Of a stretch of 35,888 nucleotides of DNA, positions 6,807 to 22,157 are shown piece after piece. This DNA is from a bacterium. Its GTDB lineage: Bacteria; Vulcanimicrobiota; Xenobia; Xenobiales; JADMJV01. The DNA lies in NCBI GenBank assembly GCA_030149525.1, contig JASBRJ010000118.1, positions 1 to 35,888 on the forward strand, written 5' to 3'. Every line of letters starts with the position of its first letter. Within the stretch, counting starts at the first letter, position 1. The notes under the pieces are model-generated. The model saw only the letters and a list, made by a program, of their open reading frames with translations, did not search any database and had not been told where the DNA came from. The translations under genes and the position numbers were made by a program.

Positions 6807-9161
6807 TTAAGCTGTAGTGGGGAGCAAACTTGGAGCCAAATCTCTCCACTCCTGCCGAAAATCCTCAATAAGCCTGGAGATATCTTCGGGTTGAGTGGGT
6901 TGGGGAAGGGAGACGAGCCGTGCTCCCCAGTCGAAAAGTCCTGCGGAAAAAACCAGTCTCTCAAACTTTAAAAGCGGCTCCCGGATCGAATCCGTGCTTG
7001 CTTGGTGAGAGAGAGCGTGGAGAGTAGAGAGACTGGAGTTGATGTGGCTGAGGAACTTTCCGGGCCAGTCTTTCAACTCCTCAAAGTCTCGGAATCGAGC
7101 CTCTTTCCAGGTCAGTTGGCCTTTCAGAACCGACTCCCAGCGATAGAGTCTTTGACCCAACAACTTTCGCGACAACGGCTTGGGCAGAATATCATCCATT
7201 CCTGATGCCAGACATTTTTCTCGGAGATCGGCTGCCAGGTGAGCCGTAACGGCGATGATCGGCACCCTGGCTCCTCCTTGGGACTCCAGAGACCGAATTA
7301 TGCGAGTCGTCTCGAATCCGTCTTTGCCGGGCATCTCGATATCCATCAAAACGAGCCTCGGCTTGCGTTCAGCGAACAACTGCTCGGCCTCGAGGCCGGA
7401 GTCTGCAAACACGCACTGATATCCCCAACTCTCGAGCATCCTCTCGACCACCATTCGATTGACCTCGTGATCCTCGGCCACAAGGATCACGGAACCGGTA
7501 GGTGGATTGGGGATTTCAGGGATTCTGATAGCCCCCGACTCCTCTTTTTGCTTGATCAACTCGCGTATGGCTCGCAGCAAGATTGACCGGGTCACCGGTT
7601 TGAGAAGGTGTCGCTGGTCGTCACGGAAGGCGATGGAACGGTCGACCGCGGCACTGGGATGAAAAAGAATGATGGCGGGACATTTCACAGAATTGTGGAT
7701 TTTCTCCGTGATCACCATCTGGGGGTTCTGCTCCCAGCCTACGACCTTGCAGTTCCATTTTCCGAGAACCAACTCCAAAGCTTGCTTTCGTGCAGGGCTG
7801 GAAATGTCGAGAGCCATTGTGAGCCCTTTGAAGTCAGGAGGCTCAAAACCCTTAAGGAAACGGAAAGGTAACTGAAAAGAAAATCGGCTTCCCTCCCCTA
7901 CCTTACTCTCTAGATCAAGTCGGCCACCCATCATTTGGCAGAGGGAGCGACAGATGGAGAGCCCTAGTCCGGTGCCGCCGTACTCTCTGGTTGTTGAGAC
8001 ATCGGCTTGAGAGAAGGGGCGAAAGATATCAGCTTGCTTTTCCGCCGGAATCCCGATCCCTGAATCGGCGACGCTGAAAAGCAGCCAGCCCGGTCGAGGG
8101 GAATTGACCAGCAATCGGACCCAACCGCCGGCCGTGAACTTCACCGCATTGCTCAGCAGATTCATCAAGATCTGCTTGAGTTTGATGGAGTCGCCCTCAA
8201 TTTCCAGAGGACAACTTTGATCGATCCAGACCTGCAGATCGAGCCCCTTTTTGGCCGCCTGATAACTAATGGTGGACAACGATTGGAGAACAGCCTCCTC
8301 CAGTAGGAAGGAGTGGCAGTCGATGGCGACCTGCTCTGATTCTAATTTTGAATAATCCAGAACACCGTTGATAAGCGTGGAGAGTGAGCGGGCCGATTCC
8401 ACGACTTGAGAGAGTTGCAGTCTGAGTGCCGGGTTCTTCTCTCGATGGGCCAAATCTTCCGTGAGCCCCAAGATGCCATTGAGCGGAGTCCTCAATTCGT
8501 GGCTCATTTTAGCAAGAAACAGACTTTTCGCCTTGGTCGCAAGCTCCGCTTCCACTCGGGCGGCGGTCGCTTCGGCGGTGCGTTGAACCACTCGCTGCTC
8601 CAAGTCATCGTTGAGCTTTTGAAGATCTTCGAAAAAACGCGCCCTTTCCAGAGCCGTTGCGGCCAGGTCGGAGATGACGTCGAGCATCTGCAGATCGGCC
8701 TGGGTGAAAGCAGCAGAAAGGCGATTGTCCAGATAAAGAACTCCCAGGGTCGACTCTCGCCCCTTCAGTGGAACACAGATCACAGAGCGAATCCCCTCGG
8801 CCACGATGGAGTTTCGACCAGCTAACATCTCATTCTGCGCGGTGTCCACTTCGGCGAGAGGGGTCTGTTCGGTCCAGACTTTCTCCACCACGGTCTGGCT
8901 GTGGCGAAACTCCTGTGAACTCGACTCCTCCGACCGGTCTACAAAGAGCGCCAGGCGCGGGCAGGCTGCACTCTCCTCGGAGGCTAAAAAAAGAGCCCCA
9001 CGTTCGGCCTCCATGGACTCCACGACGGAGTCCAGCAACTCCCGCAAAGCTTCAGAAAATCGTTTGGGGGTATTGATCCGTTTGCCGATTTCAGAAAGAA
9101 TCTCGAGGCGGCGAACCTCTTCTAATTTTAGATTACGAAGCGACTCTTTCGGAGTGCTCAT
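6807..9161 (-). CDS. Hybrid sensor histidine kinase: GAF, HisKA, HATPase, pseudo-receiver, receiver, Hpt-like
   Basis: This 784-residue soluble kinase has no membrane segment. In order: a GAF domain (about 27-175); a coiled coil; HisKA with phosphorylated H221 in MSHELRTP; an HATPase domain with N338, DSGIG (366-370) and GGTGLG (395-400); a receiver-like domain (about 446-540) without the phospho-Asp but with a KPV motif; a full receiver (557-670) with E563, D564, D607 in LMDIEMP and K661; and a helical C-terminus (690-780) shaped like an Hpt domain, where the expected His is Glu (ERLVFSAG, E734). ATG at 9161 shares ATGA with the upstream pilin-like gene stop, so the two are translationally coupled. 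A TTG start 27 bases earlier is less likely. No output domain is present, so the phosphate must pass to an unlinked partner. Confidence 0.9.
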   Translation of the reverse strand: MSTPKESLRNLKLEEVRRLEILSEIGKRINTPKRFSEALRELLDSVVESMEAERGALFLASEESAACPRLALFVDRSEESSSQEFRHSQTVVEKVWTEQTPLAEVDTAQNEMLAGRNSIVAEGIRSVICVPLKGRESTLGVLYLDNRLSAAFTQADLQMLDVISDLAATALERARFFEDLQKLNDDLEQRVVQRTAEATAARVEAELATKAKSLFLAKMSHELRTPLNGILGLTEDLAHREKNPALRLQLSQVVESARSLSTLINGVLDYSKLESEQVAIDCHSFLLEEAVLQSLSTISYQAAKKGLDLQVWIDQSCPLEIEGDSIKLKQILMNLLSNAVKFTAGGWVRLLVNSPRPGWLLFSVADSGIGIPAEKQADIFRPFSQADVSTTREYGGTGLGLSICRSLCQMMGGRLDLESKVGEGSRFSFQLPFRFLKGFEPPDFKGLTMALDISSPARKQALELVLGKWNCKVVGWEQNPQMVITEKIHNSVKCPAIILFHPSAAVDRSIAFRDDQRHLLKPVTRSILLRAIRELIKQKEESGAIRIPEIPNPPTGSVILVAEDHEVNRMVVERMLESWGYQCVFADSGLEAEQLFAERKPRLVLMDIEMPGKDGFETTRIIRSLESQGGARVPIIAVTAHLAADLREKCLASGMDDILPKPLSRKLLGQRLYRWESVLKGQLTWKEARFRDFEELKDWPGKFLSHINSSLSTLHALSHQASTDSIREPLLKFERLVFSAGLFDWGARLVSLPQPTQPEDISRLIEDFRQEWRDLAPSLLPTTA

Positions 9162-9586
9162 GGCTTCGTTCGCCACTCGGCGACCCAACCTTTGTTGGAC
9201 TGGAGAACGTAGCGTCCCTCAAAAACAGAGGTCACCGTTCTGCCACCCTCACCGGCCACTTCCCCCACAGAACGAAGAGTGAAAGTTTTGGGCCCGTACT
9301 GTTGTTTGAGGACCTCCACCGAGTAGCGAGATTCGCTCCTGGAGAAGTCGCCCTTGAACCAAACACCGACCGGCGGAGTTTTGAAACCTTTACCGCTCAT
9401 GAGAGCTTCAGCTCTCACCAGACCGCTTTCGGCGGCGTATCCTGCAATCGCTTCGCTACGCTGCAGTTCCACCTCGTCTTGAATTCTTGCCGAGTATGAA
9501 GAAAAGGCCAAATAGGCCACGGTGAAGGCCGAAAGACACACCACCAGGACCACCATTAAGTATCCACCCGAGCGTCTTGGTCTCAT
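9158..9586 (-). CDS. PilX-like minor pilin
   Basis: The 142-residue protein has a short basic start (MRPRRSGG) followed at once by a hydrophobic helix, YLMVVLVVCLSAFTVAYLAF, and then the run RSEAIAGYAAESGLVRAEA. That last pattern, with A-A-E-x-G-L, is typical of PilX/PulK-type minor pilins. A prepilin peptidase site could lie between G8 and Y9, but the usual Glu at +5 is absent, as in PilX and GspK proteins. The ATG overlaps the previous gene stop (ATGA, 9583-9586), and its own stop overlaps the kinase start. It is the third of three pilin-like genes. Function as a pilus tip or priming subunit is inferred. Confidence 0.65.
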   Translation of the reverse strand: MRPRRSGGYLMVVLVVCLSAFTVAYLAFSSYSARIQDEVELQRSEAIAGYAAESGLVRAEALMSGKGFKTPPVGVWFKGDFSRSESRYSVEVLKQQYGPKTFTLRSVGEVAGEGGRTVTSVFEGRYVLQSNKGWVAEWRTKP

Positions 9587-10035
9587 TTGAATCCCCATCG
9601 ATGAAGGCCCCAAGTTTGGCGCATTTTAGCGTGGTGCTCAACCCAGATTGCCACCAGCGAATCTTTTTTGTCGTAGAAGCGAAACCGGTGCCCTTTGCCC
9701 AACACCTTTCGTTGCTCGCCCGCCTCGCGCACCACCACATCGTCGACCACCGTGTACAAAACGGGAGTCAGCTTGCCTCCTTGGCCGTAGCGATTGATGA
9801 CCAACTGATGCCCTTTTTCGTCTAACTGATAACCTCGGTGGCTGGCCAGATCGGCTCCCAGCGAGTCACGCAATTTGGACGAGAGTGTTGAGGAATCGCC
9901 GTCGATATAGACCACACCGACAACAGCGACCAGGCTCAAGGCCATGAAGAGCAAACCGCCGCCCAATCCAAGCCAGGCGCCGACGACGGAAAAAAAGACC
10001 GACGAGGTGCTGTCCTTCTCAATCAGCTCGGACAT
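9583..10035 (-). CDS. Degenerate PilW/GspJ-like membrane protein
   Basis: This 150-residue protein has one hydrophobic segment near residues 14-43 and a C-terminal region with the pattern VLYTVVDDVVVREAG and KGHRFRFYD. That resembles the beta-rich head of PilW/GspJ minor pilins, where a Y-x-x-x-x-x-x-L-x-R strand is common. The N-terminus, MSELIEKDSTSS, lacks the G-[FLIM]-x-x-x-E prepilin site, so it may not be processed in the normal way. The ATG at 10035 has GGAG five bases upstream and overlaps the previous gene by 17 bases. The assignment rests mainly on its position between a PilV-like and a PilX-like gene. Confidence 0.5.
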   Translation of the reverse strand: MSELIEKDSTSSVFFSVVGAWLGLGGGLLFMALSLVAVVGVVYIDGDSSTLSSKLRDSLGADLASHRGYQLDEKGHQLVINRYGQGGKLTPVLYTVVDDVVVREAGEQRKVLGKGHRFRFYDKKDSLVAIWVEHHAKMRQTWGLHRWGFK

Positions 10036-10423
10036 ATCGCTCCAATCGGAAGTTCTTGTGCCCGTCTTCCCATTCAATCCAGACCTGAGCTCTGGCCAGG
10101 CCCGCCTCCGGGCCCCGCAGACGAGTCAAGAGGATGCTTCGCTCGAAGGTGGTGGAGTGAAACCTATCGTTCACGCCACTTCCAAAGCTACTGACGTTGG
10201 TCTGTTTGAGGTATTTTTGCGGATTCAGAATCACTTGCTCCATGGCTTCTTCAGCGAGTTCCACGGCTCGGCGAGTGTGGTGCGCATCTTCGGCCGCGCG
10301 CGTTGCCGCGTGGAGAATAGCCAGATTACCTCCCAGAGTCAAAAAAAGAAGGCCAAGGCCGACCAGGAACTCACTGAGGAGCCGACCGGCCCGGGTTCGG
10401 TTTCCATGAAATCTTTCGATCAC
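10019..10423 (-). CDS. PilV/GspI-like minor pilin
   Basis: The 134-residue protein carries a prepilin-like N-terminus: RTRAG then RLLSEFLVGLGLLFLTLGG, with Glu18 at +5 after G13. The residue at +1 is Arg rather than Phe, Met or Leu, which is unusual. The long hydrophobic helix continues into RAAEDAHHTRRAVELAEEAME, similar to the PilV/GspI class. The start is GTG with GAGAAG about ten bases upstream; an in-frame stop just before rules out a longer form. It is the first gene of the seven-gene minus-strand run and diverges from the DegT gene. Whether a prepilin peptidase accepts the Arg+1 site cannot be judged here. Confidence 0.6.
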   Translation of the reverse strand: MIERFHGNRTRAGRLLSEFLVGLGLLFLTLGGNLAILHAATRAAEDAHHTRRAVELAEEAMEQVILNPQKYLKQTNVSSFGSGVNDRFHSTTFERSILLTRLRGPEAGLARAQVWIEWEDGHKNFRLERYVRAD

Positions 10424-15945: not shown

Positions 15946-15974
15946 ATAGACCGCAAGCACGGGGCCCTTATAAT
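15946..15974 (+). promoter_or_regulatory. Candidate sigma-70 promoter for first Gly/Gln-rich gene
   Basis: A consensus -10 box TATAAT (15969-15974) is preceded at a 17-base spacing by TAGACC (15946-15951), which matches four of six -35 positions. It lies about 40 bases before the ATG at 16014 and after the lepB stop, so it would give the Gly/Gln-rich gene its own start of transcription. Confidence 0.5.
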
Positions 15975-16013: not shown

Positions 16014-16883
16014 ATGGCAATTTCAAACATCCAAGGTTTTTCACCCCAACAGTTTCGCCCCGGCAACTTTGGAGGAGCCCCTTCCGGTATCCCCGGTCAA
16101 GTCCCCGGACTCCAAGGCGGCCCTGGTGATGCCTTCGGACTTTCCCCGGAAGCCCAGCAGGCCGGCGGAGCCATGGGTGCGCAAGGAGCCCAACAAGGTG
16201 GCCCCCAGCAGTTGACCCAAGCTTTGATCAGAGACATCGGCGCCGTGATGCAGTCTCAGCAGGCAGGCGGAGAACAAGGGCAGGGACAGGGCCAACAAGC
16301 TCTTCAACAACTGGGTCAAACTTATCAACAGGGCCAGCAAAGCGGCCAACTCCAAGGCGTGCCCGCTCCGGTTCGCTCCACCGCTGAAAGTCTTCTCGGC
16401 ATCAATCAAGGCCAACAAGGTCAAGAAGCCGGAGGCGGTGCCCCCGCAGGCGGCGGACAAGAGGCTGGTGGAGGTCAAGAGGCCGGAGGCGCCCCTCAAG
16501 AAGCAGGAGGCGGACAGGAAGCGGGTCAGGGTCAAGAGACCGGCCAAGGCCAAGAAAACAAGCCTTTCGGTGAAGACTTTTTGAAGAAGCTGGAAGAGCT
16601 GCTCGGCAAGGACAAGGCCGAGGAAGTCAAAGAGGAAGCCAAAGCAGACGGCGACAAGGACAAAGAAACTAAGACCGATGGCGAAAAAGGTAAGGACACC
16701 AAGACCGACACCAAGACTGAGCCTAAAACCGATACCAAGACAGATACCAAGACCGAGGTCAAGACGGATACCAAGGTGGCTGGTGCCGACGCTCCAAAGC
16801 CTGCCGCGTCAAAGCCCAAGCCTGCTCCCGCTCCGGCTCCCAAGCCTAAGCCTGCAGCAAAACCGAAGGTTGTTTCAGCCTAA
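16014..16883 (+). CDS. Gly/Gln-rich low-complexity protein, paralogue 1
   Basis: The 289-residue protein has no signal peptide. Its parts are an N-terminal stretch FSPQQFRPGNF; a helical section from about 70 to 135 (LTQALIRDIGAVMQSQQ, then QQLGQTYQQGQQSG); a Gly-Gln-Glu repeat zone (about 134-181); a short helical part FLKKLEELLGK; a Lys-Thr-Asp repeat run (about 227-254); and an Ala-Pro-Lys tail. The protein at 17071 has the same order, so the two form a family. I recognise no known domain. A promoter lies upstream and a terminator downstream, so the gene is a single transcription unit. The ATG at 16014 fits the shared N-terminal motif; the ribosome site is weak. Function is unknown; binding or scaffolding is a possible guess. 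Confidence 0.75.
   Translation: MAISNIQGFSPQQFRPGNFGGAPSGIPGQVPGLQGGPGDAFGLSPEAQQAGGAMGAQGAQQGGPQQLTQALIRDIGAVMQSQQAGGEQGQGQGQQALQQLGQTYQQGQQSGQLQGVPAPVRSTAESLLGINQGQQGQEAGGGAPAGGGQEAGGGQEAGGAPQEAGGGQEAGQGQETGQGQENKPFGEDFLKKLEELLGKDKAEEVKEEAKADGDKDKETKTDGEKGKDTKTDTKTEPKTDTKTDTKTEVKTDTKVAGADAPKPAASKPKPAPAPAPKPKPAAKPKVVSA
16411..16557 (+). repeat. Gly-Gln-Glu coding repeats
   Basis: Within the first Gly/Gln-rich gene, short irregular units such as GGGQEA, GQGQE and GAPQEA are repeated with variable codons. The unevenness suggests protein-level selection for composition rather than a recent DNA expansion. Confidence 0.6.
16692..16775 (+). repeat. 12-base coding repeats (Lys-Thr-Asp/Glu)
   Basis: This 84-base stretch codes for 28 residues of units KDTKTDTKTEPKTDTKTDTK and onward, with a period of four codons. 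DNA units such as accaagaccgac and accaagacagat differ by few bases, which suggests slippage or duplication. Confidence 0.7.
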
Positions 16884-16909
16884 ACGGTATCTCAAACAAG
16901 AGAAACGAG

Positions 16910-16945
16910 AAAGAGAGTGGCCGGCGGGTCGCTCTCTTTTTGTTT
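16910..16945 (+). terminator. Rho-independent terminator
   Basis: An eight-base stem AAAGAGAG/CTCTCTTT (16910-16917 with 16932-16939), extendable by GU pairs, is followed by TTTTTGTTTT. It closes the first Gly/Gln-rich gene 26 bases after its stop. Confidence 0.75.
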
Positions 16946-17070
16946 TCCCTGCTGCAACATTCTGTCTACATCGTGGCGGACTTTTCCGTACTCCCTTATG
17001 AATGGGATGCCCTACACTCCGAATTGAGAGAGACATACTTCCAGAAATCAACACGGAGATATTCACATAA

Positions 17071-18048
17071 ATGGCATCAGTATCCGGAATAGGACTTTCC
17101 CCCAACCAACTGCGTCCTCAAGGCCCCGCTGCCTTAGCTGGACCCCAACAAGCGCAACAACAACCGCAGGGTGGACCGCAAGCCGGCCCTCAGGGCCCCG
17201 TCGACCAGGCAAATCTCAGCAAGGAAGCACAACAGCAAGGGCAAGGTCAGGACCGGGGGGCACAACTGACTCAAGCTCTTTCCCAGGGACTACAACAGGT
17301 GGGCCAGGCCGAACAATCCGGCGATAAGAATGCCGTGGAGCAATCCACCCAGCAGCTTGGCCAGACCTACCAACAGGGCGCTCAATCCGGCGCCAAGGAT
17401 CAAGCCGACCAGGGTGTCGTTAAGGCTACTGAGGACAAACTGGGAATCGGACAAGGCCAGCAAGGCGGCGGTCAGCAGGGGGCGGGCGAGGCCGGCGGCG
17501 CCGGTGGAGGCCAGGAAGCGGGAGGCGCAGGTGAAGGCGGCGGCTGCTCCGGTGGCCAGTGCGGCGGCGCAGGCGACGCCCAACAGGGTGGTGGCTGCGG
17601 AGGCGACTCTTCGGGCCAGCAGGGGGGCTGCTGCGGCAACCAGTGCTGCAACCAGGTCAAGGGGCCTCTCGACGATCTCCTGGGCAAACGGGTCGATGAT
17701 CTGGAAAAGCGAGTAGACAAGCTCGAGGGTAAAGACAAGGACAAGAAAACCGAAGAGACCGATAAAGACAAAACCGTTGACGCCAGTGACACAGCGGTAG
17801 ACTCAAGCAAGACGGACAAGAAAGACACTACCGACAAAGCGGGTGAAACGGCGGCCTCCTCCACCGCCGGTTCTGCCACCAAAACTCCCACAACCTCGAC
17901 GGTGACGGCAACCTCTCCCACGACCAACACCTCGACCGCCAAACCGGTGGCAGCCTCTAAGCCTGTAGCGGCCTCTAAGCCTGCTGCTGCGGCTCCGGCG
18001 GCTGCCGCACCAAAGGCTTCACCGCCGGCCGCTGGGAAGCGCGGCTAG
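17071..18048 (+). CDS. Gly/Gln-rich low-complexity protein with Cys cluster, paralogue 2
   Basis: The 325-residue protein lacks a signal peptide and parallels the product of 16014: N-terminal LSPNQLRPQG, helical LTQALSQGLQQ then QQLGQTYQQGAQSG, the run LGIGQGQQG, a Gly-rich zone, a charged helix and a Ser/Thr/Ala/Pro tail. Unlike its paralogue, the Gly zone holds seven Cys in about 35 residues (CSGGQC, GGGCGG, CCGNQCC), which could bind metal, form disulfides or link to other proteins. A heptad-like helix DDLEKRVDKLE follows, suggesting a coiled coil. GGAG lies 12 bases before ATG at 17071. No known domain is recognised. A strong terminator follows 23 bases after the stop. Confidence 0.75.
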   Translation: MASVSGIGLSPNQLRPQGPAALAGPQQAQQQPQGGPQAGPQGPVDQANLSKEAQQQGQGQDRGAQLTQALSQGLQQVGQAEQSGDKNAVEQSTQQLGQTYQQGAQSGAKDQADQGVVKATEDKLGIGQGQQGGGQQGAGEAGGAGGGQEAGGAGEGGGCSGGQCGGAGDAQQGGGCGGDSSGQQGGCCGNQCCNQVKGPLDDLLGKRVDDLEKRVDKLEGKDKDKKTEETDKDKTVDASDTAVDSSKTDKKDTTDKAGETAASSTAGSATKTPTTSTVTATSPTTNTSTAKPVAASKPVAASKPAAAAPAAAAPKASPPAAGKRG

Positions 18049-18071
18049 GCGCTGGAAAAGAGCCGAACCTG

Positions 18072-18102
18072 AAAGGCGCCCGATATGCCGGGCGCCTTTT
18101 TT
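18072..18102 (+). terminator. Strong rho-independent terminator
   Basis: A perfect 11-base stem AAAGGCGCCCG/CGGGCGCCTTT (18072-18082 with 18089-18099), loop of six bases, followed by a run of six T in total. It lies 23 bases after the stop of the second Gly/Gln-rich gene and ends that transcription unit. Confidence 0.9.
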
Positions 18103-18167: not shown

Positions 18168-19199
18168 ATGAACATTAGCGCCTTTTCGAATAACAGACTT
18201 CCTGCCACTCGTTTTCATAACGAGCCGGCCCCACCGGACAAAGGTGATCCCGACCGCTCGGTACCGTCCGACAAGCTGGATCCCCCGGTCAACACCGACC
18301 GGCTGGTCAATGATTTCATCGAGTTGGTCACCGTTCCAGGTGCCACCCGCAACGAGCGAAAGATTGCCGACAAGATCAAAGCTGAACTCGCTGAGATGGA
18401 TCTCCAGGCCACCGAAGACGACGCCGGGTCCAAAATCAACGGTAACGCAGGAAACCTTATCGTCAATATCCCCGGCAACGTCGAAGGAGCACCGTCTCTG
18501 CTCTTCGCGGCACATATGGACACTGTGCCCCTGGCTGAAGGCGTGAAGCCGGTGATCGAAGACGGCTACATCAAAAGCGACGGAACCACCGCTCTGGGCG
18601 GAGACAACCGCGCCGGTGTAGCGGAAATCCTGGAAGCCATCAGAGAGATCAAAGAACACGGTCTTCCCCACGGCGACCTGCAACTTCTCTTCACCGTGGG
18701 TGAGGAGGGCGGACTCTTGGGTGCTCGGGCGCTAGACCCCAAAGTTCTCACTGCCGACTACGGTTTCGCCGTGGACGTTTTCGAAGCCAACCAACTCTAC
18801 ACCCAGGGGCGTCACCTTCTGATCGACGGACAGGAACCGATCGGTGAGGAGCACTTCACCCCAGAAGGCGTTCACGCTGCCAAGGAAGCGGCTCGTAACG
18901 CTCCCGTTGTTCCGCCGGAGCACTTGAGACTCACCGAAGACGAAAAGAAGATCATGAATCTGGCTGCCGACTCCATGCAGGACCTCGGTTTCGAGCCAGA
19001 GTTTCGACGCATCGAGTGGGCAGGTACCGACGCCATTGCTCTCCGACGACACGGAATGAACGCCATCAGCCTCGGTGCCGGGGAAGACAATCCTCACACC
19101 AAGAATGAGCGTGTGGAGATTGCGGACCTTGTTCGAAGCACCCAGCTGATTCGGAGCATCATAGCCAACGCGGCCGAACAGGGAGAGTCCAAGCCGTAA
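18168..19199 (+). CDS. M20-family metallopeptidase (PepT-like), shortened lid
   Basis: The 343-residue di-zinc peptidase has the M20 metal-binding set: H116 and D118 in AAHMDTVP, D146 in ALGGDNRAG, E179 and E180 in TVGEEGG, D203 and H310 in NPHTKNE. The context suggests PepT-like di- or tripeptidase or deacylase activity in the cytoplasm. Two oddities are seen. Residues 1-40 are a Pro-rich extension unlike the family. And the usual dimerisation ('lid') domain of about 110 residues is reduced to about 50 (roughly 204-258), so the enzyme may be a monomer with an open active site. No Shine-Dalgarno is seen; a promoter lies immediately upstream. Terminator hairpins follow. Family call is firm; substrate is not. 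Confidence 0.87.
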   Translation: MNISAFSNNRLPATRFHNEPAPPDKGDPDRSVPSDKLDPPVNTDRLVNDFIELVTVPGATRNERKIADKIKAELAEMDLQATEDDAGSKINGNAGNLIVNIPGNVEGAPSLLFAAHMDTVPLAEGVKPVIEDGYIKSDGTTALGGDNRAGVAEILEAIREIKEHGLPHGDLQLLFTVGEEGGLLGARALDPKVLTADYGFAVDVFEANQLYTQGRHLLIDGQEPIGEEHFTPEGVHAAKEAARNAPVVPPEHLRLTEDEKKIMNLAADSMQDLGFEPEFRRIEWAGTDAIALRRHGMNAISLGAGEDNPHTKNERVEIADLVRSTQLIRSIIANAAEQGESKP

Positions 19200-19220: not shown

Positions 19221-19238
19221 ACACAACGGGAGTTGTGT
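19221..19238. terminator. Weak terminator-like hairpin
   Basis: ACACAAC/GTTGTGT, seven perfect pairs with a four-base loop GGGA, followed by TAATTT on the plus strand. It sits between the convergent M20 and GspJ-like genes. The T-run is poor. Confidence 0.4.
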
Positions 19239-19855
19239 TAATTTCGAAAAGCTGCACGACAGATCATGTGCAGCTTTTCTGGTTTTTCGTCGCCGTAGCG
19301 TTTTCGAGTGCCGGAGACTTCCACCTCAATCAAACTGTTGTTCAGTGTGAAAGTGCAGGTATCTAAATCGGTCATCAAGAGCCGACCACCGTTGCGGTAG
19401 TCTTCTATGTTGCCCGTAAAGGCATCGTAGCTGGGGAGCGGTTCCGGAGCGTCCGCCTCGGGAGAGCCGGGTATAAGTTCTACTTCGTTCAGGTAGAGCT
19501 TACGATTGGCCTGATCGAAGTAAAAGATCAGGTACTTTTGCCAGCGGGGTTTGAAAGTGGTTGTGTCGAGGGCGAAAACACCGTTGTTGTCCATGGCGGA
19601 AAGGAAAGATAGAGTTGGTCCGTTGACGCCTGGTGAATCGATGTCGACACTGGCCACTACGCTTCGTTGCACCTCTTTACTTATCTTCGCTGTCAGGACT
19701 TCGTAATCGGCCAGCATGGTGCTTTGGGCTTCCAGCTTTTTCCATCCACTGGCGCCTGTTCGGAAAAGAGCGACGGTGAGAAGTCCCAGGAGCCCCAGGA
19801 CCACAGAAGCCACCAGAAGCTCGACTATGGTTATACCGCGTTGTTGCTTTCTCAA
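19238..19855 (-). CDS. GspJ/PilW-like pseudopilin
   Basis: The 205-residue protein has a classic prepilin N-terminus: MRKQQRG then ITIVELLVASVVLGLL, with E12 at +5 after G7. The C-terminal head is beta-rich. Size and the pattern of a long helix then a GspJ-like head suggest a minor pseudopilin of a type IV pilus or type II secretion system. The start is TTG, overlapping the stop of the preceding GspI-like gene as TTGA, so the two are coupled. It is the third of a three-gene set (PilX-like, GspI-like, GspJ-like). No assembly ATPase, platform protein or prepilin peptidase is in the window. Confidence 0.83.
   Translation of the reverse strand: MRKQQRGITIVELLVASVVLGLLGLLTVALFRTGASGWKKLEAQSTMLADYEVLTAKISKEVQRSVVASVDIDSPGVNGPTLSFLSAMDNNGVFALDTTTFKPRWQKYLIFYFDQANRKLYLNEVELIPGSPEADAPEPLPSYDAFTGNIEDYRNGGRLLMTDLDTCTFTLNNSLIEVEVSGTRKRYGDEKPEKLHMICRAAFRN
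19246..19287 (+). terminator. Terminator hairpin inside the 3' end of the GspJ-like gene
   Basis: A perfect 12-base stem GAAAAGCTGCAC/GTGCAGCTTTTC (19246-19257 with 19268-19279) is followed by TGGTTTTT. It lies about 50 bases after the M20 stop and inside the last codons of the convergent minus-strand gene, so it can end M20 transcripts while coding for protein on the other strand. Because the stem itself ends in TTTT on both strands, it may work in both directions. Confidence 0.65.
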
Positions 19856-20292
19856 GGATGGATCAAAGTCTCCAGACTGAGCGGTGGGTTATTGTTCCAG
19901 AAGACGGACACCTTCACACGTTTCACCCGGCTCCCGTCGTCGGAGCTTTCTACCATGATCGTGTAGTCTGTCTCATTCACCGTGGTCGCCGGGTAGGGAT
20001 CCGGTGGAAAGGGAACCGGTCCAGCGATGTCTTTGGCGTCGGGGAGCCGACCGTCGAATTTTGTGATGCCCGGAGGGACCGCGGTGAGACCATGGATATC
20101 CGTGTCGCGCTTGACAGCTTCGAGAACAGATTTTGCCACATCGTTGGCTGCCGCCATTTCATTGGAGCGCTGCATTAATTTCAGGCCCCCGATAAAGACG
20201 GTGAGTATAGAAAGAGCGGCCACAGCCAGCATCCCGATGGAGACCATCACCTCCATGAGGCTCAGGCCTCTGCGCGCGTGTTTTTTTGACAT
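19852..20292 (-). CDS. GspI/PilV-like pseudopilin
   Basis: The 146-residue protein starts MSKKHARRG and continues LSLMEVMVSIGMLAVAALSI, a typical G-[L]-x-x-x-E prepilin peptidase site (G9, E14). After the helix it has a short head with a beta pattern. This fits the GspI/PilV class. ATG at 20292 shares one base with the upstream gene stop (TAATG), and its stop overlaps the next TTG start, so all three pilin-like genes are translationally coupled. Confidence 0.85.
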   Translation of the reverse strand: MSKKHARRGLSLMEVMVSIGMLAVAALSILTVFIGGLKLMQRSNEMAAANDVAKSVLEAVKRDTDIHGLTAVPPGITKFDGRLPDAKDIAGPVPFPPDPYPATTVNETDYTIMVESSDDGSRVKRVKVSVFWNNNPPLSLETLIHP

Positions 20293-22157
20293 TAACGTCC
20301 CATCCAGAGGTTTTTGGAGAGAAGTTGGGGGCCGATGGATGGCGTGGAGGGATTCCCTTTGAACATCTCCTCCACGTAGGTCACTCTCGTCGACTTACCA
20401 AGATAAATATCGCCGGGTTTGAGAGTGACTGTAGTTGAATTGTTATTAACATCCTTGAGAGTGAAGGTCTCCGCGGTCGTTCCCTGGCCGTTCACGATGA
20501 TGGCCCCCAGAACCTGGACTTCATTGTTGGCAACGAAACTTCCCTGAGTGTAGATGGCCCCCTGAAAATAGGAACTGCCAATCTTGTCGTAGGTCACGCT
20601 ATTGATGAGATTGACAACATTAGGCCAGAGTTTCTTGGCTTGTTCAAATCGAGGAGGCGGAGACGGTTTTGAGTGGTCGACCGAATATACCGCAGCGACA
20701 GAATCTAAAAGTCCTTTTGTCTCCCCAGTCGCTTCAAAATTGTTCATCAAGGCAAGATTTGGGTCAGGAGCGACCGTGTCCGCCAAGTTCGCACTTTTAA
20801 AGAGATCCTCCAATTTCGAGAGCCGATTTGAGAGGAACGTTTTTGACTCACTTGCGGGTAGAGAATCTATCTGGTCCCGCAGTTCATACATCAGATTCTT
20901 TTTTGGTGTGACCGGGGTCCCATCCTCGAGCAAAAGGCCAGGTATTATTTGTGCCGGTGTTCCTGAGTCGTGGAGTCCTAGATTCACGAGTACCGTTGTA
21001 ACACGGTCAGCAGTGTAGGCGTTGAGGACGTTTCCGTTGTCCGAAAGCTCTTGCTGGAGGTACTTGAGGTGCGCCTCTGCGTTCTTGAGATCCGCCTGAA
21101 TTTGACCTCCCTGATTATCCATGAACTCCGTTCCATCAAAACCTGTGAGAACAACGCTTCCTTCGCTGTAAAGAGAAACCGAGTAGTCGGGGTTTGTGGT
21201 GACCTCGCTGTCTCCTTTCAAGGTGGTCTTACCGTTCACATAAACACTGCCATTTCCTCGAACCGTCCCGTTAATCGAAAGATCGCCTTGAACATACAAC
21301 TCTGCACCATCAGCGAGAACGATATCTCCATCAATAGCGGGGCCGGAATAAGAATGCTTACCGGCAGGCAAAGTCGTCGTTCCGAAGGGCACGATCGTTA
21401 CCGGAGTTCCTGCAGAGTAATTCGCTGTGACCTTGTTAGCGACGTCATAACTAGGAATGACCGTCGAAGAGTTCAGCTCAAGGCTGCCCTGAATAGTGGC
21501 TCCTGACATACTTATGGCAGAGGCCGAAGAACCTTGTGTCCCAACGTTCCCAGTCACCAGAGCCGTTCCAGGTCCGTTCCAGGAAACAAGATTCGAACCT
21601 GCGCTCGCGTTGGACTGGATCGAACCGCTCACCTCTGAAGAATCGTCAAGAGCCGTTATGCCGTCGACATAAAGGTCACCTTGCATCACAATTTTCCCGG
21701 AACCAAGAATTGCGTCGGTGACGTAACCAACGCTACCATTACCCTCTACCAGAGCCTCCAAAGTGTAACGATGCCCGGACACATTCGAAGTGACGATGAG
21801 CAACGCGCTGTTTTGAGGTACGCTATTAGGGCCTCTATAGCTCGGCTTCGGAGTAAGCCCACCGATATTATTCACCGAATCATACTTACCGGTGCCGAAC
21901 GTCACCGTGTAGGTTCCCCGCATTCCCGGAATGGTGGCATCGGTCACCCCGGACCAACTGAGGTCGTTCTCCAAAGCCACCTGCGCCTTCGCCAATCCGG
22001 CTTCCGCCAGGTATAGAGCCTGGGTTTGGTGGTGCTGCGACATGCCGGCAAAGATCCGCTGGCGTGACATCAAGATCATGCTCACTGCCATCATGAACAG
22101 CATGCCGAGAAACATAAAGGTGGAAATGAGTGCGAAACCCCTGCGACGATGACTCAT
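20292..22157 (-). CDS. Large PilX-like minor pilin with long passenger region
   Basis: The 621-residue protein begins MSHRRRG then FALISTFMFLGMLFMMAVSM, a prepilin-like helix without the usual Glu at +5, followed by HQTQALYLAEAGLAKAQ, the PilX hallmark. The rest is unlike ordinary pilins: a region rich in Gly, Ser, Thr and Val with recurring motifs such as GDLYVDG, GSLELNS, GDLSING and GSVYVNG (about residues 130-340). This pattern suggests a beta-helix or bactofilin-like stack. A helical middle (about 345-500) and a final beta part (FQGAIYTQGSF, LGAIIVNG) follow. It may form a pilus tip or surface adhesin, which is inference. ATG at 22157 replaces a less likely upstream reading; a TATCAT box lies six bases before it. 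It leads a three-gene operon. Confidence 0.75.
   Translation of the reverse strand: MSHRRRGFALISTFMFLGMLFMMAVSMILMSRQRIFAGMSQHHQTQALYLAEAGLAKAQVALENDLSWSGVTDATIPGMRGTYTVTFGTGKYDSVNNIGGLTPKPSYRGPNSVPQNSALLIVTSNVSGHRYTLEALVEGNGSVGYVTDAILGSGKIVMQGDLYVDGITALDDSSEVSGSIQSNASAGSNLVSWNGPGTALVTGNVGTQGSSASAISMSGATIQGSLELNSSTVIPSYDVANKVTANYSAGTPVTIVPFGTTTLPAGKHSYSGPAIDGDIVLADGAELYVQGDLSINGTVRGNGSVYVNGKTTLKGDSEVTTNPDYSVSLYSEGSVVLTGFDGTEFMDNQGGQIQADLKNAEAHLKYLQQELSDNGNVLNAYTADRVTTVLVNLGLHDSGTPAQIIPGLLLEDGTPVTPKKNLMYELRDQIDSLPASESKTFLSNRLSKLEDLFKSANLADTVAPDPNLALMNNFEATGETKGLLDSVAAVYSVDHSKPSPPPRFEQAKKLWPNVVNLINSVTYDKIGSSYFQGAIYTQGSFVANNEVQVLGAIIVNGQGTTAETFTLKDVNNNSTTVTLKPGDIYLGKSTRVTYVEEMFKGNPSTPSIGPQLLSKNLWMGR

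Follow-up and report, generated by a model that had tools for sequence, protein, structure and literature searches.

Two adjacent genes for Gly/Gln-rich proteins, A and B, raise the question of what kind of proteins they encode and whether these stay inside the cell. Both lie in the window (the whole stretch of DNA analyzed, 35,888 nucleotides), which is located on contig C269 of the host assembly (G000; 8.27 Mb, 97% complete). The initial annotation had described them as separately expressed paralogues of an unrecognised family, having neither a signal peptide nor a known domain. The features of the locus are listed in Table 1.

The start codon of gene A is backed by paralogues that likewise open with MAIS or MAIG. 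The promoter scan yielded three sigma-70-like sites, compared with 0.4 expected from shuffles, and the same scan found no promoter for gene B. An earlier terminator scan listed the A hairpin only; the B hairpin comes from a second, z-scored analysis. The terminator proposed after each gene and the sigma-70-like promoter proposed before A were both borne out, and A and B are separately terminated. All shared motifs quoted for the two proteins are present: SPQQFRP (A) and SPNQLRP (B), LTQAL in both, QQLGQTYQQGQQSG (A) and QQLGQTYQQGAQSG (B) for QQLGQTYQQG-x-QSG, and LGINQGQQG (A) and LGIGQGQQG (B) for LGI-x-QGQQG. Downstream of the helical module, both continue with a Gly-rich linker that leads to a short predicted helix, with LLGK at its end, and a charged Lys/Ala/Pro-rich tail.

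Table 1. Features of genes A and B and their surroundings, with positions in the window.
Feature	Position	Strand	Basis and remarks
Promoter of gene A, sigma-70-like, TAGACC-16-TATAAT	15947..15974	+	10/12 consensus matches
Gene A, A-type family member, 289 aa	16014..16883	+	ORF list, translation
A: N-terminal tag, MAISNIQGFSPQQFRP..., first acidic residue at 39	16014..16127	+	Disordered in model; aliphatic at position 3; first 12 acid-free
A: LSPEA motif, residues 43-47	16140..16154	+	Sequence comparison of copies
A: three-helix module, residues 61-133	16194..16412	+	Model, module searches
A: Gly/Gln/Glu-rich linker	16413..16565	+	Sequence, composition
A: predicted amphipathic helix FGEDFLKKLEELLGK, common to L003	16566..16610	+	Sequence
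A: low-complexity tail, Lys/Asp/Thr then Lys/Ala/Pro	16611..16880	+	Sequence, composition
Intrinsic terminator of A	16908..16941	+	Hairpin, -27 kcal/mol, z -4.6
Gene B, B-type family member, 325 aa	17071..18048	+	ORF list, translation
B: N-terminal tag, MASVSGIGLSPNQLRP..., first acidic residue at 45	17071..17184	+	Disordered in model; first 12 acid-free
B: LSKEA motif, residues 49-53	17215..17229	+	Sequence comparison of copies
B: three-helix module, residues 61-129	17251..17457	+	AlphaFold; helices 60-83, 86-106, 114-124, pLDDT about 90
B: Gly-rich linker with CxxxxC pairs	17458..17628	+	Sequence
B: CCGNQCC cysteine cluster; L002 counterpart CCGGKCC	17629..17649	+	Sequence
B: predicted helix VKGPLDDLLGK, common to L002	17656..17688	+	Sequence
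B: low-complexity tail, Lys/Thr then Ala/Pro	17689..18045	+	Sequence, composition
Intrinsic terminator of B	18071..18100	+	Hairpin, -22.8 kcal/mol, z -5.1
M20-family peptidase, MNI-type disordered tag (about residues 1-41), no signal peptide	18168..19199	+	Downstream neighbour

The genome contains five copies of the family, namely A, B, L002 (C136), L003 (C227) and L004 (C145). A first scan of the genome contigs with query A2 gave no match. The search for further copies that the initial annotation had proposed thus yielded three beyond A and B, plus members in relatives, and the pair does not stand alone. A and L003 are 64% identical over the first ~135 residues, B and L002 65% identical, and A and B 48%. 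Since A and B both have a nearer relative on a different contig, a recent tandem duplication of A and B is ruled out, and the pairing of A with L003 and of B with L002 indicates that two subfamilies predate the present neighbourhood. The B-L002 pair is under purifying selection (dN/dS about 0.19), and both members carry a CCGxxCC cluster. When B is compared directly with A by BLAST, the E-value is only 0.24, because most of the identity consists of low-complexity Q/G sequence. A profile of A and L003 finds B with an E-value of 8e-11 and a profile of B and L002 finds A with 6e-9, in a test set of about 1,950 proteins and decoys in which no unrelated match fell below 0.01. These reciprocal matches lie above chance and uphold A and B as paralogues. 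The LSxEA motif is found in all five copies. L004 has the same front half, followed by an enzyme-like domain (GNCSTVATIKAAM ... RHAVF ... DLWG), hereafter the Cys-His domain.

The AlphaFold model of B, based on an alignment of five sequences that included rows translated from loci of the genome search, has a disordered stretch of ~55 residues followed by a confident three-helix module (~60-127) that is in no library searched. A second model, of a family member in the related genome G003 and built solely from proteins of related loci, shows three helices at residues 35-110, which a disordered Gly linker connects to a folded domain at the C-terminus. In a Foldseek search of the B model against the PDB there was no significant match, the nearest being three-helix proteins of the bS20 type, and bS20 is the nearest, non-significant fold for both independent models. 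Both share the three-helix topology of bS20, but with E-values of 0.7 and above and 10-20% identity the likeness is an analogy only. Pfam, NCBIfam and PHROGs contain no family above cut-off for A or B, as expected from the initial annotation, and a PDB sequence search returned weak designed-helix matches only; no strong match of the helical part to a known domain appeared. Searches for a phage or plasmid origin of A and B gave no match, and PADLOC matches were dismissed since they fell on the low-complexity tails.

The absence of a signal peptide was stated correctly from the start, but the distinctive N-terminal tag of a wider class went unrecognised. The five copies begin with MAISN, MASVS, MASVG, MAISS and MAIGA, with small non-polar residues at positions 2-5. 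In all of them position 3 or 4 is aliphatic, although I, L or V at these positions also occurs in 41% of the proteins of the genome, and their first acidic residue lies at 28-45, so that the first 12 residues are acid-free; the distant members in G015 and G003 each show an acid among their first 12 residues. The consensus of the recognition motif of the export gate is FxxxPhi, and none is present in residues 1-135 of the five copies. Type III effectors of P. syringae are leaderless as well and follow three patterns that are not strictly required: position 3 or 4 occupied by Pro or an aliphatic residue, no acid in the first 12 residues and more than 10% Ser in the first 50 (PMC3338616). The A/B family shares two of the three but differs in its serine content (4/50 in the first 50 residues, 8%, in A and in B) and in residing in a genome without a detected injectisome gate. 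Early flagellar substrates such as FlgD, FlgE and FliK have export signals that combine small non-polar residues at positions 2-5 with a long spacer (PMC8983047). The A/B family resembles them in these residues, in the long, unfolded, acid-poor spacer, in a second conserved motif beyond residue 36 and in an uncleaved signal; unlike them, it lacks FxxxPhi, comprises no structural rod or hook proteins and has swapped C-terminal domains. With FlgM it has in common a short N-terminus, about 40 disordered residues, a V/L-S-x-x-A motif and helices, but homology is rejected by sequence, as there is no match to PF04316 or to a profile of the genome's own FlgM, which is encoded on C177.

The tag of A and B resembles those of many other leaderless proteins of this genome, including subtilases, the adjacent M20 peptidase and glycine-zipper proteins. 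MNI starts occur in 27 of 1,009 sampled genes, against about 1.2 expected, a count that is approximate because a simple gene caller was used on part of the genome (at least about 1.3 Mb). A disordered follow-on goes together with M[NQ][IV] starts (Fisher p 3e-11). Genome-wide, proteins starting with MNI, MQI or MQV have 30-60 disordered residues and no signal peptide, and many carry extracellular-type enzyme domains; members of the class include subtilases with prodomains, a weak M4-like match, and kelch and glycine-zipper proteins. The A/B family probably belongs to a leaderless export class.

Which machine could serve such a class? The genome encodes two full-length FHIPEP type III export gates, each inside a flagellar cluster, and an injectisome substrate was rejected because no third full-length gate was found. 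Six additional matches cover only the C-terminal (cytoplasmic) part of FHIPEP (C144:6749, C176:19620, C238:3889, C30:34876, C89:24950 and C83:31362 of G000) and look like soluble FlhA_C-like proteins. Such proteins occur across the phylum, related genomes having as many as about a dozen each, and could be adaptors, since FlhA_C recognises export substrates (PMC10965912). FHIPEP is absent in G038 and G048. After one gate cluster of G003 come small ORFs that carry a tag. Directly after a flagellar export cluster, small helical proteins of 80-85 aa are encoded in the own genome and in G003 (L067:15027-15284, L196:15555-15797), which are possibly needle- or rod-like.

Our leading reading, held tentatively, is that A and B are leaderless modular proteins whose front half delivers a cargo without Sec, most plausibly via a flagellar-type gate. 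As the tag resembles export signals but has no FxxxPhi, the gate is our best guess rather than a result. The same leaderless, modular export might instead take another route, through a type II or a type IV system or by lysis of the cell, and the tag would then be the signal for that other machine. Tagged proteins with exoenzyme-type domains and no Sec signals would fit such a route, as would the type IV pilin-like genes inside the window (type IV pilin-like or minor pseudopilin-like N-termini flank A and B at 9158-10423 and 19238-22115, minus strand, recognized by eye). However, known type II substrates need prior passage through Sec or Tat, type IV signals are mostly C-terminal, and genome searches found no gp25 and no WXG100, for which reason T6SS/eCIS and ESX cargo were rejected. 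We consider this alternative rather unlikely.

The members in relatives are part of the case for our preferred reading, export of A and B through a flagellar-type gate. The helical module alone, searched against 149 genomes of the phylum, recovered the copies of its own genome, members in G003, G001 and G015, and two weak matches; distant members score 22-30 bits, against at most 13 in shuffles (2,000 per sequence). Matches in Pseudomonas tandem repeats and in L217/L223 were weak and not significant. The module precedes the Cys-His domain in L004 and in G003, G001 and G004, the proteins of G001 and G004 starting with MALSLGS and MAISLGS, respectively. The G015 protein, from another family of the same class, has the module ahead of a glucosaminidase domain (PF01832, E 5e-5, short of the Pfam cut-off) with 46% identity to the C-terminus of L014, a tagged protein of the own genome. 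With a folded module absent from the libraries searched, five copies in one genome and members in relatives, some of them before other domains, the unrecognised family first proposed holds up, and the evidence supports A and B as members of a new, undescribed bacterial protein family. A conserved N-terminal module is thus combined with differing C-terminal domains, as in modular effectors. Since the module is found before both the Cys-His and the glucosaminidase domain, the front half (tag, three-helix module and linker) is a mobile unit whose C-terminal partners are exchanged. Polymorphic effectors that carry N-terminal trafficking domains likewise combine a conserved front half, a Gly-rich linker and an exchangeable C-terminal domain; unlike them, the A/B family has no known trafficking domain (none in Pfam).

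Among the roles guessed initially (scaffold, matrix or effector), effector is the best supported, because relatives carry the front half before a Cys-His or peptidoglycan-hydrolase domain; scaffold or matrix may still apply to the tail-bearing A and B. A cytosolic or surface-associated scaffold, in which the Q/G-rich module and the Lys/Ala/Pro tails hold assemblies together without export, would suit the low-complexity composition, the lack of an enzymatic domain in A, B, L002 and L003, and the cysteine clusters of B and L002. It is nevertheless unlikely, as the same front half precedes an enzyme-like Cys-His domain and also a glucosaminidase domain, an enzyme type with a substrate outside the cytosol. 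That the module acts on the Cys-His enzyme as pro-domain or inhibitor, with A, B, L002 and L003 as free-standing inhibitors in trans, accords with its placement ahead of the Cys-His domain in four genomes but is very improbable, given that it also precedes the unrelated glucosaminidase domain and that the tag and LSxEA motif are kept too.

The Cys-His domain has homologues in related genomes and at 37 Pseudomonas loci. It lies directly after flgBCDE at four of these, and the other 33 are not beside flagellar genes. The family (L133-L169) occurs in the Pseudomonas fluorescens group and P. syringae as leaderless proteins, often in tandem copies, and the members scanned match no entry in Pfam or NCBIfam. 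The order of Cys, His and Asp/Tyr-Gly had prompted a papain-like label, which was dropped after Foldseek and a PDB sequence search both gave no match. The description kept is that of a Cys-His domain of unassigned fold.

In the reading that we favour, a non-cleaved tag of about 40 disordered, acid-free residues with a small aliphatic start (MAIS or MASV) is followed by the LSxEA motif, the three-helix module, a Gly-rich linker and a variable C-terminus. The front half, for which a delivery role is likely, would serve as a delivery and docking unit that takes whatever lies downstream to the outside independently of Sec, the most plausible passage being a type III export gate of the flagellar type. 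Its cargo would be a Cys-His enzyme-like domain or a peptidoglycan hydrolase in sister proteins and the charged Lys/Ala/Pro tail in A and B, which may therefore be non-enzymatic exported members, perhaps adhesive or spacer-like. In favour of this reading stand the module ahead of differing C-termini, the tag and its wider class, the two flagellar gates and the four Pseudomonas loci after flgBCDE; against it stand the missing FxxxPhi, the low serine content, the lack of a profile match to FlgM, the acidic residues near the start of the G015 and G003 members and the 33 Pseudomonas loci away from flagellar genes. The shared modules, the exchange of C-termini, the lack of a Sec signal, the purifying selection, the tag class and the two flagellar gates are observed, and exit from the cell, the route and the role of the tail are what we infer.

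A bolder statement, and a doubtful one when taken as a whole, is that the Eremiobacterota (Vulcanimicrobiota) possess an undescribed N-terminal delivery module which passes exchangeable payloads through a flagellar export gate, among them a Cys-His enzyme family that pseudomonads have too, and which is part of a system, spread over the genome, of leaderless proteins exported by means of a tag. If true, this little-cultured phylum with large genomes would export many enzymes and effector-like proteins by a tag without Sec signals, possibly through flagella. The A/B family would supply a concrete, testable docking module, and a Cys-His enzyme-like family missing from Pfam and NCBIfam and shared with Pseudomonas would receive its first reading.
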